Source: a virus. From it: 31,892 bases of DNA. The DNA lies in IMG/VR virus record IMGVR_UViG_3300046683_000089, positions 1 through 31,892 of that record; one strand, written 5' to 3'. Positions 6,530-24,915 of the stretch are shown here, one piece after another. A program made the position numbers and the translations under genes. How positions within the stretch are numbered: position 1 is the stretch's first letter; each line of letters opens with the position of its first letter. The notes under the pieces were generated by a model. It saw nothing but the letters and a program-made list of their open reading frames with translations, had not been told where the DNA came from and made no database searches.

Positions 6530-6636
6530 ACATCTGTCGCGCGATGGGCGGGTGGCGGTACGAGTGGGTCGACGCGCTGCCGCGCGCCGTCTATGACGTG
6601 CTCGTCGATCACCTGAACGCGAGCCAGGCCGACTAA
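6158..6636 (+). CDS. Tail assembly chaperone, -1 frameshift (gpGT-like) product
   Basis: A -1 slip on A AAA AAG (6487-6493) joins residues 1-112 to a 47-residue extension: DEPFRTRVLSTMNICRAMGG, then WRYEWVDALPRAVYDVLVDH, ending LNASQAD at 6636. The extension reads as a typical T-domain: 'EPF.tRv' right after the slip and 'Gw...evdaLP..vyd.L..hl' at the end. The same stretch can also start on its own at ATG 6526, which overlaps the upstream TGA. The open extension in phase and the exact heptamer make frameshifting the better reading. Confidence 0.75.
6479..6516 (+). promoter_or_regulatory. Programmed -1 ribosomal frameshift signal
   Basis: The slippery heptamer A AAA AAG (6487-6493) lies in the zero frame as AAA AAG, identical to the efficient E. 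coli dnaX signal. An internal Shine-Dalgarno-like GAGG sits at 6479-6482, just upstream. A possible 6-bp stem with a 2-base bulge (6493-6498 with 6509-6516) lies downstream but abuts the slip site, so its help is doubtful. Confidence 0.75.
6526..6636 (+). CDS. gpT-like chaperone C-terminal reading, possible independent 36-aa ORF
   Basis: ATG 6526 overlaps the TGA of the upstream ORF (ATGA), and the stop TAA overlaps the tape measure start. The 36 residues (MNICRAMGGWRYEWVDALPR...) are the conserved end of phage tail chaperones. It is most likely made as a frameshift extension, but coupled re-initiation is also possible. Confidence 0.5.
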   Translation: MNICRAMGGWRYEWVDALPRAVYDVLVDHLNASQAD

Positions 6637-8630
6637 TGGCGCTCACCGGGACGCTCCTCGCCGACTTCAGCGCCTTCACCAGCGAGGCCGCGAAGGCGAC
6701 CGCCGCCGTCAAGGGGATGGAGACGGGCGCCGACACCGCCGCGGCGAAGCTCTCGAAGATCGGCGAGGGCGTCAACATCAAAAGCGCGATCAGTGACCCG
6801 ATGGGCACGGCGACGACAATGACGACCCAGTTCGCCGAGTCGCTCGGAGGCGTGGGCGTTGCGGCCGTCGGCATCACGGCCAGCGTCGTCGCGCTCGGAA
6901 CGGCGCTGTTCGAGCTGGGATCGTACTCGGCCGAGGTCATCGCGAAGTTCGACGACCTGGCCGACAAGACCGGCATGAGCGTGCCCGCACTCTCGCGGCT
7001 GTCGAACGCGGCGCACGTCATCGGCGCCGACCTCGGCCAACTCACCGATGTCGTGTTCAAGCTCGAACAGCGGATGGGCGAGAACAGCGAGACGTTCCAG
7101 AAGGGCCTGACCGCGATGGGCCTGTCGACCGAGACGCTCAAGGCGGCCGGGCCGGATAAATACCTCGAGCTGGTCACCGCGGGGCTGCAGAGCATCGCGG
7201 ACCCGTCGGCGCGCGCCGCGGCCGGCGTCGAGGTCCTCGGCAAGGGGTACCGCGACGTCGCGCACGCCCTCAACGATCTCGACGACGGGCTGCGGCTCAC
7301 CGCCGACATCGAACCGTTCACGGCGCAGCAGGCCAAGGATGCCGAGGCGTTCGGGTTCCAGGTCAACGCGCTCGTGGAACATTTCAAGGCCCTGGGAATC
7401 GCGATGGGGGCCGAACTGATCCCGGTCCTGTCGACCTTCGTGGGGTGGCTCGAGACGCTGCGCAGCACGTACAACTCGCTGCCCGATGCCGTGAAGACCG
7501 TGATTAGTCCGATGAATCTGCTGACCGCCACGTGGCGCGAAGGCTCCGCGGCGCTCGAGGCGTTCGGGATCAAGGCGACCGCCCTCCCACCGATCGAGAC
7601 CCTGGCCGCACAAACGACCGCCGCGCACGCGGCCACCGTCAAGGAACTCGCGCTCCACGTCCCGACGGCCACCGAGGCGCTCGCCACCCAGAAGGACGTG
7701 CTCAAGGAGCATGAAGCGCAGGTCAAGAAGGACGCCGAGGCGCTGAAGGAATGGCAGAAGGCGACCGACGCGATCAACGCCGCGACGACCGGTTGGCAGA
7801 CCACGCTCGAGACATTGGACGGGACCGTCGTCGAAGCGATCAAGTACTACCTGTCGGCCGGCGTGTCGCAGGGCGACCTGGCGAAGGCGTACGGCGTGAC
7901 CGCGCAGCAAGTCGCCGCGGTCAAGATCGCGCTCGAGGACTACAGCACCGCGCTCACCGCGACCGCGGACCTCGAGAAGGCCGAGGCCGATCAGCGCAAA
8001 GTGATCGACCAGGCGATGTTGAAGGCGACCAACGATCGCATCCTCGCCGAGTTCCAGAAAAAACAGGCGGCCGAGGCCAGCGAGGCCGCCTTCCTGAAGG
8101 CCAACCTGGCCGACGCCCAGGCGCAGGATGCGATCCAGCAGGGGATCACGACGACGACGGCGGCCGCGACCGCGTCGGCGGACGTGATCGGCAATGCCTA
8201 TACGACGCACTTCAAGGCGGCGCAAGGATCGTTCGAGCAGTTCCAGGGTGTCGTGGTCGCCGGCACCGCCGCGATGATCGCGGGGGTGAGCCAGTTTCAC
8301 GACGTCGTGCAAATGCATAAGGACATCACCGACGCCCAATACGCGCGCGGCCAGTTCTTTGTCGACGTCGCGCCCACGCTGCCGACGCGCGACAGCGGCG
8401 GCCCCGTGAGCGCCGGCCAGTCCTACCTGATCGGCGGCGGCAAGGCGCCGGAAATCTTCACGCCGGGCGCCAGCGGGTTCGTCACGCCCGGCGGCGGGGG
8501 CGGCGGGGTCGTGCAACACATCTACGTCACGCAGCCGCTCGGCACGCCCGACGCCATCGCGCGCGCGGTCGCCGACGCGCAGATCAGCCTGATGAAAGGC
8601 CAGGGCGCGCGGTTGCCCTACGGCGGATGA
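6636..8630 (+). CDS. Tail tape measure protein
   Basis: A 664-residue protein, largest of the upstream tail genes, ATG overlapping the previous stop. The N-terminus has the tape-measure opening (LTGTLLADFSAFTSEAAKAT), then a hydrophobic stretch (GGVGVAAVGITASVVALGTA, residues ~70-90), a 'fDdLADKTGMSVPALSRLSN' block and GADLGQLTDVVFKLE; these are usual for phage tail length tape measure proteins. Long Ala/Glu/Lys helices follow (residues ~310-500), and the end is Gly-rich with VSAGQSYLIGGGKAPEIFTP, a common C-terminal motif. At ~0.15 nm per residue this predicts a tail near 100 nm (family rule of thumb). Confidence 0.9.
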   Translation: MALTGTLLADFSAFTSEAAKATAAVKGMETGADTAAAKLSKIGEGVNIKSAISDPMGTATTMTTQFAESLGGVGVAAVGITASVVALGTALFELGSYSAEVIAKFDDLADKTGMSVPALSRLSNAAHVIGADLGQLTDVVFKLEQRMGENSETFQKGLTAMGLSTETLKAAGPDKYLELVTAGLQSIADPSARAAAGVEVLGKGYRDVAHALNDLDDGLRLTADIEPFTAQQAKDAEAFGFQVNALVEHFKALGIAMGAELIPVLSTFVGWLETLRSTYNSLPDAVKTVISPMNLLTATWREGSAALEAFGIKATALPPIETLAAQTTAAHAATVKELALHVPTATEALATQKDVLKEHEAQVKKDAEALKEWQKATDAINAATTGWQTTLETLDGTVVEAIKYYLSAGVSQGDLAKAYGVTAQQVAAVKIALEDYSTALTATADLEKAEADQRKVIDQAMLKATNDRILAEFQKKQAAEASEAAFLKANLADAQAQDAIQQGITTTTAAATASADVIGNAYTTHFKAAQGSFEQFQGVVVAGTAAMIAGVSQFHDVVQMHKDITDAQYARGQFFVDVAPTLPTRDSGGPVSAGQSYLIGGGKAPEIFTPGASGFVTPGGGGGGVVQHIYVTQPLGTPDAIARAVADAQISLMKGQGARLPYGG

Positions 8631-20324: not shown

Positions 20325-21455
20325 ATGTCGGCGTACTACAACGAACACGATCCGTTCGCCGCCGCCTGGCTGCGCGAATTGATCAAGCAAGGGCTGATCG
20401 CTGATGGCGAAGTCGATGAGCGATCAATTGCCCTTGTTCAGCCCGACGACGTGCGAGGCTTCGCCCAGTGTCACTTCTTCGCTGGGATTGGCGGCTGGTC
20501 CTACGCTCTTCGATTGGCCGGATGGCCTGACGGCCGCGCTGTCTGGACGGGGAGTTGTCCCTGTCAGCCATTCTCGGCCGCAGGCGCCCAGGCTGGCGGA
20601 CACGATCCCCGCGACCTTTGGCCTGTCTGGAACCACCTCATCGCGCAGTGCCGTCCTGCAGTCGTCTTTGGTGAACAGGTTGAAGCAGCGATTGGACACG
20701 GATGGCTCGACCGTGTTTGCGATGACTTGGAAGCGGAAGGTTACGCCGTCGGGGCGTGTGGTGTGCCGGCTGGTGGTGTCGGGGCGTTCCACATCAGACA
20801 GCGTCTCTGGTTCGTGGCCCACGCCGCAGGCGGAAGGGGATACGACGGGCGGGGGGCAGGAGAAGAATGCGCTGCACGCGGAGATGGGGATTCTGCGTCC
20901 GAGCGGGGCGGCGCATTCGAGGAACCTTCGGGATTACGTGTTGCTGGCGGCGTGGCCCACACCGAATGCGGGACCACAGAACGATACGGACAGTCAGTGG
21001 CCGGAGCGGCGGGAGCTCCTGAAGGCGCAGCACAAGAACGGGAACGGCTTCGGGCTGACGTTGGGGATGGCGGTGCAACTAGCGACGTGGCGCAGTCCGA
21101 ACGCGGGGGATGCGGAGGGCGGGGTGATGCAGATGACGGCGGCGCACGGGCGCTACAAGCTGCGGGACCAAGCGCCGCTGGCGACATGGGGCACGCCGAA
21201 CTGTATGGATCACTTGCCATCAGGCAACCTCGCCAGCCGGAAGCTGAAAGGCGGCTGTGTCAACCTGAAGGATCAAGTTTTTGGGCTGGAGCCGAGTGGC
21301 TCCCCTGCAGCGACGGCAAAGCGCGGCCAGTTGAACCCGGCACATTCCCGCTGGCTTATGGGGTATCCGCCCGCGTGGGACGCCTGCGCGGGTACGGCAA
21401 TGCCATCGTCCCGCAAGTCGCGGCCGCGTTCATCCGCGCCTATCTCGAGCGATGA
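20325..21455 (+). CDS. C5-cytosine DNA methyltransferase
   Basis: A 376-residue protein with the C5-MTase motifs in order: I FAGIGG (52-57), IV with catalytic Cys80 in SCPCQPFSAAG, a VI-like VVFGEQV (Gln in place of the usual Asn of ENV), VIII-like HIRQRLWFVA (~157-165) and X RLRGYGNAIVPQVA near the end. The region where the target-recognition domain belongs (~166-325) is very Gly/Ala-rich, with four V-A-H-like repeats (V164, V210, V255, M288). Those bases encode, one frame over, a second recognisable protein, which may explain the odd composition. Could protect phage DNA from restriction. Sequence specificity cannot be read. Confidence 0.87.
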   Translation: MSAYYNEHDPFAAAWLRELIKQGLIADGEVDERSIALVQPDDVRGFAQCHFFAGIGGWSYALRLAGWPDGRAVWTGSCPCQPFSAAGAQAGGHDPRDLWPVWNHLIAQCRPAVVFGEQVEAAIGHGWLDRVCDDLEAEGYAVGACGVPAGGVGAFHIRQRLWFVAHAAGGRGYDGRGAGEECAARGDGDSASERGGAFEEPSGLRVAGGVAHTECGTTERYGQSVAGAAGAPEGAAQERERLRADVGDGGATSDVAQSERGGCGGRGDADDGGARALQAAGPSAAGDMGHAELYGSLAIRQPRQPEAERRLCQPEGSSFWAGAEWLPCSDGKARPVEPGTFPLAYGVSARVGRLRGYGNAIVPQVAAAFIRAYLER

Positions 21456-21474
21456 CACGGGCGTGACGCGATGA
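20404..21474 (+). CDS. WPTP-repeat phage protein, overlapping the methyltransferase in the +1 frame
   Basis: A 356-residue reading, ATG 20404 with AAGGG about ten bases upstream. It overlaps the methyltransferase for 1052 bases on the same strand. It has its own recognisable pattern: ALQSSL-like VLQSSLVNRLKQRL, STVFAMTWKRKVTPSGR, four W-x-[TS]-P-[QN] repeats (W138 SWPTPQAEG, W184 AWPTPNAGP, W229 TWRSPNAGD, W262 TWGTPNCMD) and GQLNPAHSRWLMGYPPAWD near the end. I know this pattern from phage genes usually called hypothetical or methyltransferase-associated. Function unknown; possibly a partner or inhibitor acting with the methyltransferase. Stop overlaps the next ATG. Confidence 0.68.
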   Translation: MAKSMSDQLPLFSPTTCEASPSVTSSLGLAAGPTLFDWPDGLTAALSGRGVVPVSHSRPQAPRLADTIPATFGLSGTTSSRSAVLQSSLVNRLKQRLDTDGSTVFAMTWKRKVTPSGRVVCRLVVSGRSTSDSVSGSWPTPQAEGDTTGGGQEKNALHAEMGILRPSGAAHSRNLRDYVLLAAWPTPNAGPQNDTDSQWPERRELLKAQHKNGNGFGLTLGMAVQLATWRSPNAGDAEGGVMQMTAAHGRYKLRDQAPLATWGTPNCMDHLPSGNLASRKLKGGCVNLKDQVFGLEPSGSPAATAKRGQLNPAHSRWLMGYPPAWDACAGTAMPSSRKSRPRSSAPISSDDTGVTR

Positions 21475-21674
21475 CGACCCCGCGTGCGGTAATTGTCGAT
21501 CGCGCCGACCGGGGCGACGGGTTACTCCCCGTGCGGCGCGCGGAGGCGTCGTGCACCGCGTGCGACTGGCACGCGACGATGACCGGCGACACCGACGACG
21601 AGATCACGGAATTTCTGCGGCTGTTGTGGTGGGAGCACGCGACCACCATGCACGCGCGACGGAGGCCCGCATGA
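21471..21674 (+). CDS. Unknown small protein (67 aa)
   Basis: The ATG overlaps the stop of the WPTP protein, indicating coupling and indirectly supporting that frame. Contains a CTACDW pair of cysteines, a short acidic patch (TGDTDDEITEFLRLLWWE) and a basic end. No domain recognised. Confidence 0.6.
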   Translation: MTTPRAVIVDRADRGDGLLPVRRAEASCTACDWHATMTGDTDDEITEFLRLLWWEHATTMHARRRPA

Positions 21675-23338: not shown

Positions 23339-24915
23339 TGGACACCGCCCGTGAACTGTTACACGCCCTCGATCGCGTGCTCGCCGCGCAGGCGGTCGAT
23401 CCCACGCTCGCCGCGCTCACCGGCCACGTGCTCGGCGGGCTCATGGCAGCCAACCCCGACATGGACGAGACGATCGCGATCGACCAGGCGATCCGCATGG
23501 CGCGCGCGACCGTCGCGCAGCTCGCCGGCGCGCCGATCACGCCGCCGCCGGTGGTCGCCGGTCGCACCGTGCTCACGCCGGCGGATTTCACGTATCTCGG
23601 CGCCGCGACGCTCCCGCTCGACACGAACGGCCAGACGCGGTTCGGGTACTCGACCGGCGCGCTCTCCGGCCGTGTCGTCGACGGCGCGATTCACCTGTTC
23701 ATCACGGGCGCACAAGCCGAGACCGGCTGGATGGACCCCGTCTACGAGGTTGCGTGGCACGGCGCGGGCACGCGCTGCACATTCGTCACCAATTGGGGCG
23801 ACATCACGCTGGGGAAGCGCGTCTCGGCGGCCGGCAACGCCGTCCCGCTGCACGGTCTGCTGTGGGACCCCGTGACCGCGTCCCTGCTGTGGACCTACAT
23901 GGACAGCTACAACGTCGGCGGCGCGCACGACCCGTGCCTCGGCGCGTCGCAGCTCACTCCGGGCCACGTGATCGTCTCGGGCCCGTGGCGGCTGACCGAT
24001 CATTGCGCCCGCGTCGGCGGGTATCTCGTGGCCCTGCCGGAGGCGCTCGCGGCGCACCTGGGCGGCGCGCGCTTCGCGGCCGGCGCCCCGATTGGGTCGG
24101 GCAATGCGTCGTCGGCGTGGGGTGCGTTTTGCGCTGCGTTCACGCTGCCGGCCGCCGGCACGCCGGCCGATCCCCTCGCCGATCCGTCGGGCATCACGAT
24201 TCAATCGAAGCACCTGATTTACGCCGACTTCGATCACAAGCAAACGCGCGCCGGCGATGTGGACGACTGCGGGTGGACGCACTACGGCGAAGCGGACAGC
24301 CAGGGCGCGGAACCGCAATTCAACCCGGTGCAGGACGGCACGGGCTGCACCGTCAACGGCGAACTGTGCGGCGTTTCGTACGGCCCGATCAGCACGTTCA
24401 CGTCGATGGATGCGCTCTCGGCGGCGGCGTTCATCGGGGGCGCGCACAAGCACGGGCTCGTGTATGTCGGCCAACTGGCACGGACGATCGCCGCGCAGGC
24501 CGCCGCGTACGGGCCGCTCGGCCGCTGCCATGTGTGGTACGGCCCCGCGCAGGAATACGGCGTCAAGAAAATGTGCGCGCACGGGCAGAACGACACGCGC
24601 TACGCGCCCGAAGCGACCGGCCCGAGTTGCACCACCATGCAGTCGTCGCTGTTCATCTACGACCCGGCCGATCTCGCGTGGGCCGCGCAGGGCCTGTGTT
24701 CGCCGATCCTCCTGCCGCCGACCACCGACGCCGCGGACCTGAGCGCGATCGCGCACGCGGGCACGCCGTTTCCGCAACTCGTGTCCTACGGGTTCTGCAC
24801 GTTCGGCGGCGCGTGGTGGGAACCGGCCAGTCAGACGTTGTTCGTGTCGGAGTGTCACGCCGAATGGCAGGGCGAGTGGCGCCCGGTCGTGCACGCGTTC
24901 CAGGTGGCGTGCTGA
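23338..24915 (+). CDS. Large beta-propeller-like protein, unknown function (525 aa)
   Basis: By far the longest early gene. Residues ~1-70 are helical; from ~80 on the protein is beta-rich with aromatic and Cys-containing strand blocks: FRY-like RFGYSTGALSGRVVDGAIHL, AWHGAGTRCTFVTNWGDITL, LWDPVTASLLWTYMDSYN, SKHLIYADFDHKQTRAGDVD, and a final GGAWWEPASQTLFVSECHAE ... RPVVHAFQV. The last block resembles the closing blade of secreted bacterial propellers ('..yDp..rrLyv.e.......PvvHvf.v'). No signal peptide or catalytic motif seen. Coupled to small genes on both sides. Could be a cargo enzyme-like protein or carbohydrate binder; I do not recognise the family. Confidence 0.75.
   Translation: MDTARELLHALDRVLAAQAVDPTLAALTGHVLGGLMAANPDMDETIAIDQAIRMARATVAQLAGAPITPPPVVAGRTVLTPADFTYLGAATLPLDTNGQTRFGYSTGALSGRVVDGAIHLFITGAQAETGWMDPVYEVAWHGAGTRCTFVTNWGDITLGKRVSAAGNAVPLHGLLWDPVTASLLWTYMDSYNVGGAHDPCLGASQLTPGHVIVSGPWRLTDHCARVGGYLVALPEALAAHLGGARFAAGAPIGSGNASSAWGAFCAAFTLPAAGTPADPLADPSGITIQSKHLIYADFDHKQTRAGDVDDCGWTHYGEADSQGAEPQFNPVQDGTGCTVNGELCGVSYGPISTFTSMDALSAAAFIGGAHKHGLVYVGQLARTIAAQAAAYGPLGRCHVWYGPAQEYGVKKMCAHGQNDTRYAPEATGPSCTTMQSSLFIYDPADLAWAAQGLCSPILLPPTTDAADLSAIAHAGTPFPQLVSYGFCTFGGAWWEPASQTLFVSECHAEWQGEWRPVVHAFQVAC

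Follow-up and report, generated by a model that had tools for sequence, protein, structure and literature searches.

Two overlapping reading frames at a phage methyltransferase locus

The 31,892-nucleotide (nt) stretch of viral DNA analysed here (IMG/VR virus record IMGVR_UViG_3300046683_000089, positions 1 to 31,892; hereafter the window) carries integrase, portal, major head and tape-measure genes, and on this gene content it probably derives from a temperate tailed phage. Between positions 20,325 and 21,474 lie two long open reading frames (ORFs), alpha and beta, which have 1,052 nt in common, with beta in the +1 frame relative to alpha. The beta start falls within alpha in the other frame, a small ORF nested in a large one, and there is an alternative ATG for beta at 20416. 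We show by computation that both frames are maintained, that the frame under selection switches along the gene, and that the same domains occur elsewhere as one chain or in a different split. The two ORFs are as follows.

20325..21455, + strand: ORF alpha, putative catalytic subunit of a C5-cytosine DNA methyltransferase, 376 amino acids (aa), with a phrog_363 match (2.7e-78), a PF00145 match and an M.HhaI-like AlphaFold2 model
20404..21474, + strand: ORF beta, WPTP protein, 356 aa, with a phrog_1008 match (1.6e-22) and the same +1 overlap in 284/285 and 126/127 loci

An initial annotation made from the sequence alone had proposed two meaningful frames over these 1,052 bases, and both ORFs were confirmed at the coordinates above. 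Its assignment of the first frame to the C5-methyltransferases is borne out by the phrog_363 match and by PF00145 (1.3e-11, profile positions 66-161 only). It had also placed four W-x-[TS]-P repeats in beta, at W138 (WPTP), W184 (WPTP), W229 (WRSP) and W262 (WGTP), opposite V164, V210, V255 and M288 of alpha, with V-A-H in alpha opposite the repeats; coordinate arithmetic agrees with all of these positions.

Conservation of the overlap

The same +1 overlap was found in 284 of 285 loci gathered via beta, via alpha or from bacterial genomes. A second subfamily, in which alpha has the ordinary motif order and the guanine-cytosine (GC) content goes down to 35%, shows it in 126 of 127 loci. A total of ~410 of the 412 fetched loci have the overlap, ranging from Proteobacteria prophages to Lactobacillus phage Lc-Nu, and loci retrieved through alpha alone likewise carry beta. 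GenBank phages with the overlap include N15, epsilon15, BcepC6B, K1G, Bas70, Bas48 and Lactobacillus phage Lc-Nu. For a Paraburkholderia locus, 299 genomes sampled from its phylum included 17 with phrog_1008 matches. Beta without alpha was not seen among the loci examined; the part of the genome hits that was inspected all had alpha.

When alpha of the window is recoded synonymously over the overlap, the beta frame acquires 2.2 stops on average (P(open) = 0.043); with beta recoded, the alpha frame acquires 8.6 (P(open) = 0.001). The observed number is 0 in both. Among 190 relatives, the stops expected from recoding number 271 in the beta frame (alpha-constrained part) and 467 in the alpha frame (beta-constrained part), and 0 of either are observed, although these totals are not independent tests because the loci are related and mostly similarity-selected (most were selected via beta with a long open overlap required, which 278/285 passed). 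P(open) by recoding is nevertheless ≤0.008 for each of several single loci, namely the distant phages Lc-Nu (low in GC), C72C1, Bas48 and N15, and Paenibacillus pAP1. The initial annotation had asked whether homologues of beta overlap alpha in the same phase and whether stops break the frame in relatives: homologues do so in ~410/412 loci, and the frame is unbroken.

The selected frame changes along the gene

We compared divergence in phylogenetically independent pairs, by codon position and by joint synonymous/non-synonymous class (NN, SN, NS), using control genes for comparison. The selected frame switches along the gene, being alpha over motifs I-VIII and X, and beta over a helix and hairpin, the WPTP modules and the LNPAHSRWLMGYPPAW block. 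The segments concerned are listed below, with w denoting NN/SN and pLDDT the predicted local distance difference test score.

20334..20813, + strand: alpha motifs I-VIII; w 0.16-0.30; pLDDT >90 over nearly all of residues 1-170; aligned to HhaI 77-175
20475-20498, + strand: alpha motif FFAGIGGW
~20559-20576, + strand: alpha motif PCQPFS
20670-20681, + strand: alpha motif GEQV
20796-20813, + strand: alpha motif RQRLWF
20832..21269, + strand: alpha linker, aa 170-315, Gly/Ala/Arg-rich; alpha w ~1.0; pLDDT 32-51; stop-free
21390..21413, + strand: alpha motif X (GYGNAIVP); alpha constraint resumes; pLDDT 91-95; G358, N359 and A366 invariant
20641..20784, + strand: beta helix and beta-hairpin (LQSSL...TWKRKVTPSGR, aa 80-127); confident AlphaFold2 part; alpha third-position divergence falls here
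21328..21381, + strand: beta motif-IX-like block QLNPAHSRWLMGYPPAWD; beta constraint dominant, with alpha position 3 at.038-.079 against.124-.206 at position 1; absent from the alpha frame

Constraint over motifs I-VIII acts on alpha (NN/SN 0.16-0.30), with beta showing only weak constraint relative to control genes. The pattern is reversed over the WPTP modules, where beta NN/NS is 0.17-0.18 and alpha NN/SN is ~0.85-1.04 in the two closer identity bins. The alpha amino acids opposite the modules are therefore essentially unselected, and the alpha frame is nonetheless kept open. Both frames are constrained in the C-terminal part, where a finer profile has beta dominant over LNPAHSRWLMGYPPAW and alpha dominant over the motif X block GRLRGYGNAIVPQVAAAF. 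Beta constraint sets in at about beta aa 75, upstream of TWK...TPSGR. A measurement of constraint in both frames had been called for by the initial annotation, which suspected that the target-recognition region of alpha was shaped by the other frame; the composition there is indeed dictated by beta.

The window is GC-rich and has many long antisense and alternative ORFs, so that the beta frame could be thought a spurious product of GC-rich codon use combined with conservation of alpha. However, purifying selection in the middle region acts on the beta frame and not on alpha, codon-position data that already contradict such an origin, and the overlap persists in low-GC genomes. We rejected a spurious frame on the grounds of frame-wise selection, stop counts and recoding, and leave it next to no probability.

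Probable division of the methyltransferase motifs between alpha and beta

The catalytic motifs I, IV, VI-type and VIII are present in alpha as FFAGIGGW, PCQPFS, GEQV and RQRLW, the third reading EQV in place of the usual ENV. Motifs I-VIII and X are found in alpha, and motif IX is absent. The AlphaFold2 model of alpha consists of a confident catalytic domain (residues 1-170) and a motif X helix (357-376), with residues 170-315 and 339-356 disordered; these are the stretches opposite the beta modules and the beta C-terminal block (LNPAHSRWLMGYPPAW). Its comparison with M.HhaI gives a Z of 16.4 over ~180-190 of 327 residues. A target-recognition domain (TRD) and motif IX within the catalytic chain are not found in alpha, both elements lying in beta; they do stand in the catalytic chain of two relatives, L479 and L534, described below.

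The first part of alpha (20325-20576, aa 1-84) seems to be permuted locally: ahead of motif I comes a YYNExDP...VDERSI segment that looks like motifs II-III, and only ~10 residues separate motif I (FFAGIGGW) from motif IV. HMMER aligned alpha 38-67 to HhaI 3-32 and alpha 77-171 to HhaI 77-175, and the alpha model has a strand-helix-strand ahead of motif I. In the second subfamily (L286, L293) the motifs stand in the ordinary order.

When the C-terminal block of beta was compared by hhalign with a canonical C5-methyltransferase profile, the best match was motif IX, in register, with LNPAHSRWLMGYP against LTPRECARLQGFP. This match scored above 150 of 150 column-shuffled controls with the larger canonical set; in an earlier comparison with a small canonical set motif IX was again best, but 2 of 60 shuffles scored higher. 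Profile searches of beta against PDB and Pfam returned nothing significant. The PHROG families of the beta frame (phrog_1008, phrog_31772) are labelled DNA methyltransferase though beta is without catalytic motifs, a label probably derived from the overlapping gene. An ATG or GTG is located upstream of the constrained part of beta in 181 of 191 loci, and a Shine-Dalgarno-like stretch in 126. A conserved beta start codon was considered and rejected, GAT being found at the candidate site in 57% of loci against a background of 37%.

The WPTP modules

Four modules were parsed in beta of the window.

20815..20952, + strand: beta module 1 (WPTPQAEGD...), from module parsing
20953..21087, + strand: beta module 2 (WPTPNAGPQ...), its type occurring at positions 1-3 in 15 loci
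21088..21186, + strand: beta module 3 (WRSPNAGDAEGG...), the same as the second module in the nearest relative, L006
21187..21285, + strand: beta module 4 (WGTPNCMDHLPSGN...), from module parsing

Parsing of 173 loci yielded 515 modules with a median of 38 aa and 1-5 per locus (a cruder motif count gives up to 6), which fall into 36 types of at least three members each and 127 singletons. The 173 loci have 165 different module strings, and one and the same type is found at varied positions with varied neighbours. No type is repeated within a locus, compared with 11.3 repeats expected by shuffling (P<1/2000). The window and L006 have three modules in common and one differing in each, and between L479 and L534 the third module is swapped. 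Such strings are as expected of a multispecific recognition array, in which each module would read one target.

Natural variants of the architecture

Of 298 distinct loci, 245 have motif IX in +1 and motif X in the frame of alpha. In L441, L446 and L451, alpha ends directly after motif VIII and beta consists of the modules, IX and X; these loci have 14-23 alpha-frame stops between VIII and X, compared with 0 in window-type loci, and the alpha frame therefore stays open only where motif X must be reached. In L479 and the related L534, motifs I-VIII, three WPTP modules, IX and X all stand in a single ORF; third-position variation is normal for a single frame throughout, and over the module region the two remaining forward frames have 5 and 8 stops. 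This single-ORF order indicates that the WPTP modules take the place of the target-recognition domain. A further single-frame case is L452, where an insertion or deletion (indel) is possible.

This natural variation in architecture is the decisive evidence for the identity of beta. Because of the re-split loci (L441/L446/L451) and the single-chain loci (L479/L534), beta is most likely the half of a split methyltransferase that holds target recognition and motif IX, and lies nested within the catalytic half. We estimate at about 0.86 the probability that the locus encodes one split C5-cytosine DNA methyltransferase, made as two polypeptides from overlapping frames. What stands of the initial annotation is two real, conserved frames in the same phase across a large family; its view of beta as a separate, unrelated phage-family protein does not stand, as constraint mapping, the motif-IX match and the single-chain and re-split variants all point to the missing half of the same methyltransferase.

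The pair might instead be functionally unrelated, a complete methyltransferase and an independent WPTP protein that overlap by chance, as both frames are open and conserved and belong to separate PHROG families. We consider this improbable: alpha is without a folded TRD and motif IX, no beta was found without alpha in the loci examined, and the single-chain relatives place the beta modules and the motif-IX block between VIII and X. An equally small share of probability goes to a single polypeptide made by programmed frameshifting, from alpha (I-VIII) into beta for the TRD and IX and perhaps back for X. The constraint traces exactly that path and single-chain relatives exist, but two opposite shifts would be needed and the AquI-like loci are plainly two ORFs. 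Moreover, beta is open upstream of any shift (0 versus 271 stops) and alpha is open in the middle (0 versus 467), which would be needless if ribosomes always switched.

Several points weigh against a split enzyme with beta as its recognition half. The single-chain versions are found only in two related contigs (L479, L534) plus L452, no single beta start codon is conserved, and beta aa 1-75 are barely constrained in amino-acid sequence. In absolute terms the profile match to motif IX scores low (HHalign probability ~1%). AlphaFold2 of beta alone is poor (predicted template modelling score 0.30), with the better parts limited to the helix/hairpin at 80-130 and some short C-terminal helices, and Foldseek of this model against PDB gave no match with E <0.001, an uninformative search given the poor model. 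A poor fold would be expected of beta alone if it is part of a composite domain, and is no evidence by itself. Finally, the summary in PMC3404938 places the predicted TRD of M.EcoHK31I in the large subunit, in contrast to the present locus. That description also favours a reading in which the middle of alpha is the true TRD, the label that annotation would give it, and beta supplies motif IX only. Set against it are the w of ~1 and pLDDT of 32-51 in the alpha middle, and the WPTP modules that hold the TRD place in single-chain relatives; we regard it as very improbable.

Apparent single indels shift both frames together in L254, L023, L024, L075 and L452. These are sequencing errors or decaying copies, the outcome in L452 being an intact single-chain enzyme. 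In L115 an HNH-type ORF (positions 1307-1639) is situated in the third frame just past the beta motif-IX block, and alpha motif X is displaced into the beta frame ~350 nt downstream, which resembles the hidden HNH insertions of PMC11855218. Motif X is displaced in L002 and L019 too, and similar insertions may be present there. An unannotated segment of L287, a Citrobacter amalonaticus plasmid (positions 2501-2914), matches alpha 1-138 only, lies beside a tyrosine recombinase and looks like a remnant.

A proposed two-subunit enzyme and its significance

For the split methyltransferase we infer that beta is translated from its own start, that the two chains bind, that each module reads its own target and that the role is one of anti-restriction. 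One message would serve for the translation of both alpha and beta, the latter beginning at an internal start. Alpha would contribute the catalytic/S-adenosylmethionine domain (I-VIII) and, past a disordered linker, motif X; beta would bring what alpha is without, namely a small domain of helix/hairpin, one to six interchangeable WPTP modules (four here) and motif IX. The two would associate into one active enzyme, whose most likely substrate is the DNA of the phage itself, methylated at several short sequences; this methylation would shield the DNA from several host restriction enzymes.

We think it fairly probable that a large class of 'orphan' C5-methyltransferases from phages and prophages consists of multispecific enzymes of two subunits, with the recognition half out of frame inside the catalytic half. 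Their specificities would be changed or added by WPTP cassette swaps, with the catalytic chain reading through as a disordered linker, and the TRD annotated in databases would not be a TRD. If this is true, many phage methyltransferases annotated as single proteins lack half the enzyme in databases, and expressing the annotated protein alone, or reading specificity from it, would fail or mislead. The family would also be a clear and widely conserved example of dual coding, where selection passes from one frame to the other along the gene and the single-frame and re-split versions found in nature serve as controls. It would further offer a cassette system, open to testing, by which phages diversify their protection against restriction. 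Sequenced laboratory phages with the locus are N15, epsilon15 and the BASEL phages Bas48 and Bas70.

Neighbouring features of the window

The gene that follows overlaps the end of beta.

21471..21674, + strand: downstream ORF, 67 aa, whose ATG overlaps the beta stop (ATGA, 21471-21474)

This ATGA junction had been noticed in the initial annotation and is found as described. A sigma-70 promoter scan found none near the locus. Elsewhere in the window there are very long antisense ORFs at 6633-8519 (- strand, 628 aa) and 23359-24894 (- strand, 511 aa), opposite plausible coding genes; they are probably an effect of GC composition.

Comparison with known systems

Lee, Kam and Shaw are said to have described in 1995 a small ORF of M.EcoHK31I that lies within the large one in another frame. 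As summarised in PMC3404938, M.EcoHK31I (YGGCCR) is a two-polypeptide C5-methyltransferase with motifs I-VIII and X in the large chain and motif IX in the small chain, its predicted TRD being placed in the large subunit. The alpha/beta pair resembles it in motif layout, the large chain having I-VIII and X and the small chain IX. Unlike that description, its TRD-like modules are in the small chain, as interchangeable arrays of variable number. Because the TRD is not in the large chain, we describe the pair as working like M.EcoHK31I and do not file it as a member.

In M.AquI, again following PMC3404938, one chain has motifs I-VIII and the other the recognition region, IX and X. L441, L446 and L451 have this AquI-type split, with the difference that their second ORF begins deep inside the first, and the window type differs from M.AquI as described there in retaining motif X in the first chain.

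A phage methylase gene that contains a second, out-of-frame ORF is also known from ShiLan, where the hidden HNH endonuclease is an invading homing element (PMC11855218); beta, unlike it, is a proposed subunit. Our literature searches, which had partial coverage, found no description of the alpha/beta family as a split enzyme. The overlap itself is already annotated, as both ORFs are listed in the GenBank records of K1G and PhiXhv-28 with their relation unstated. In Escherichia phage K1G the same overlapping ORFs are a 'putative C-specific methylase' and a 'putative Mte8-like protein', the second being kept as a separate protein, and phrog_1008 is labelled just DNA methyltransferase.

The modules of the multispecific Bacillus-phage methyltransferases are short. 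Multispecific C5-methyltransferases of B. subtilis phages are the subject of Behrens 1987 and Trautner 1996, as cited in PMC4081073 and PMC12707154. Like these enzymes in layout, the family has tandem recognition modules between VIII and IX (here 1-6 in beta, with a median of 38 aa; in L479 and L534 they are in line), and its members are phage-encoded orphan enzymes. Those enzymes are single chains in one frame, whereas the modules of the window are in a second frame and a second polypeptide and bear the WPTP signature; modules within the catalytic chain are found only in L479 and L534. By analogy of layout, the multispecific Bacillus-phage enzymes appear to be the closest known counterpart of the modular region.
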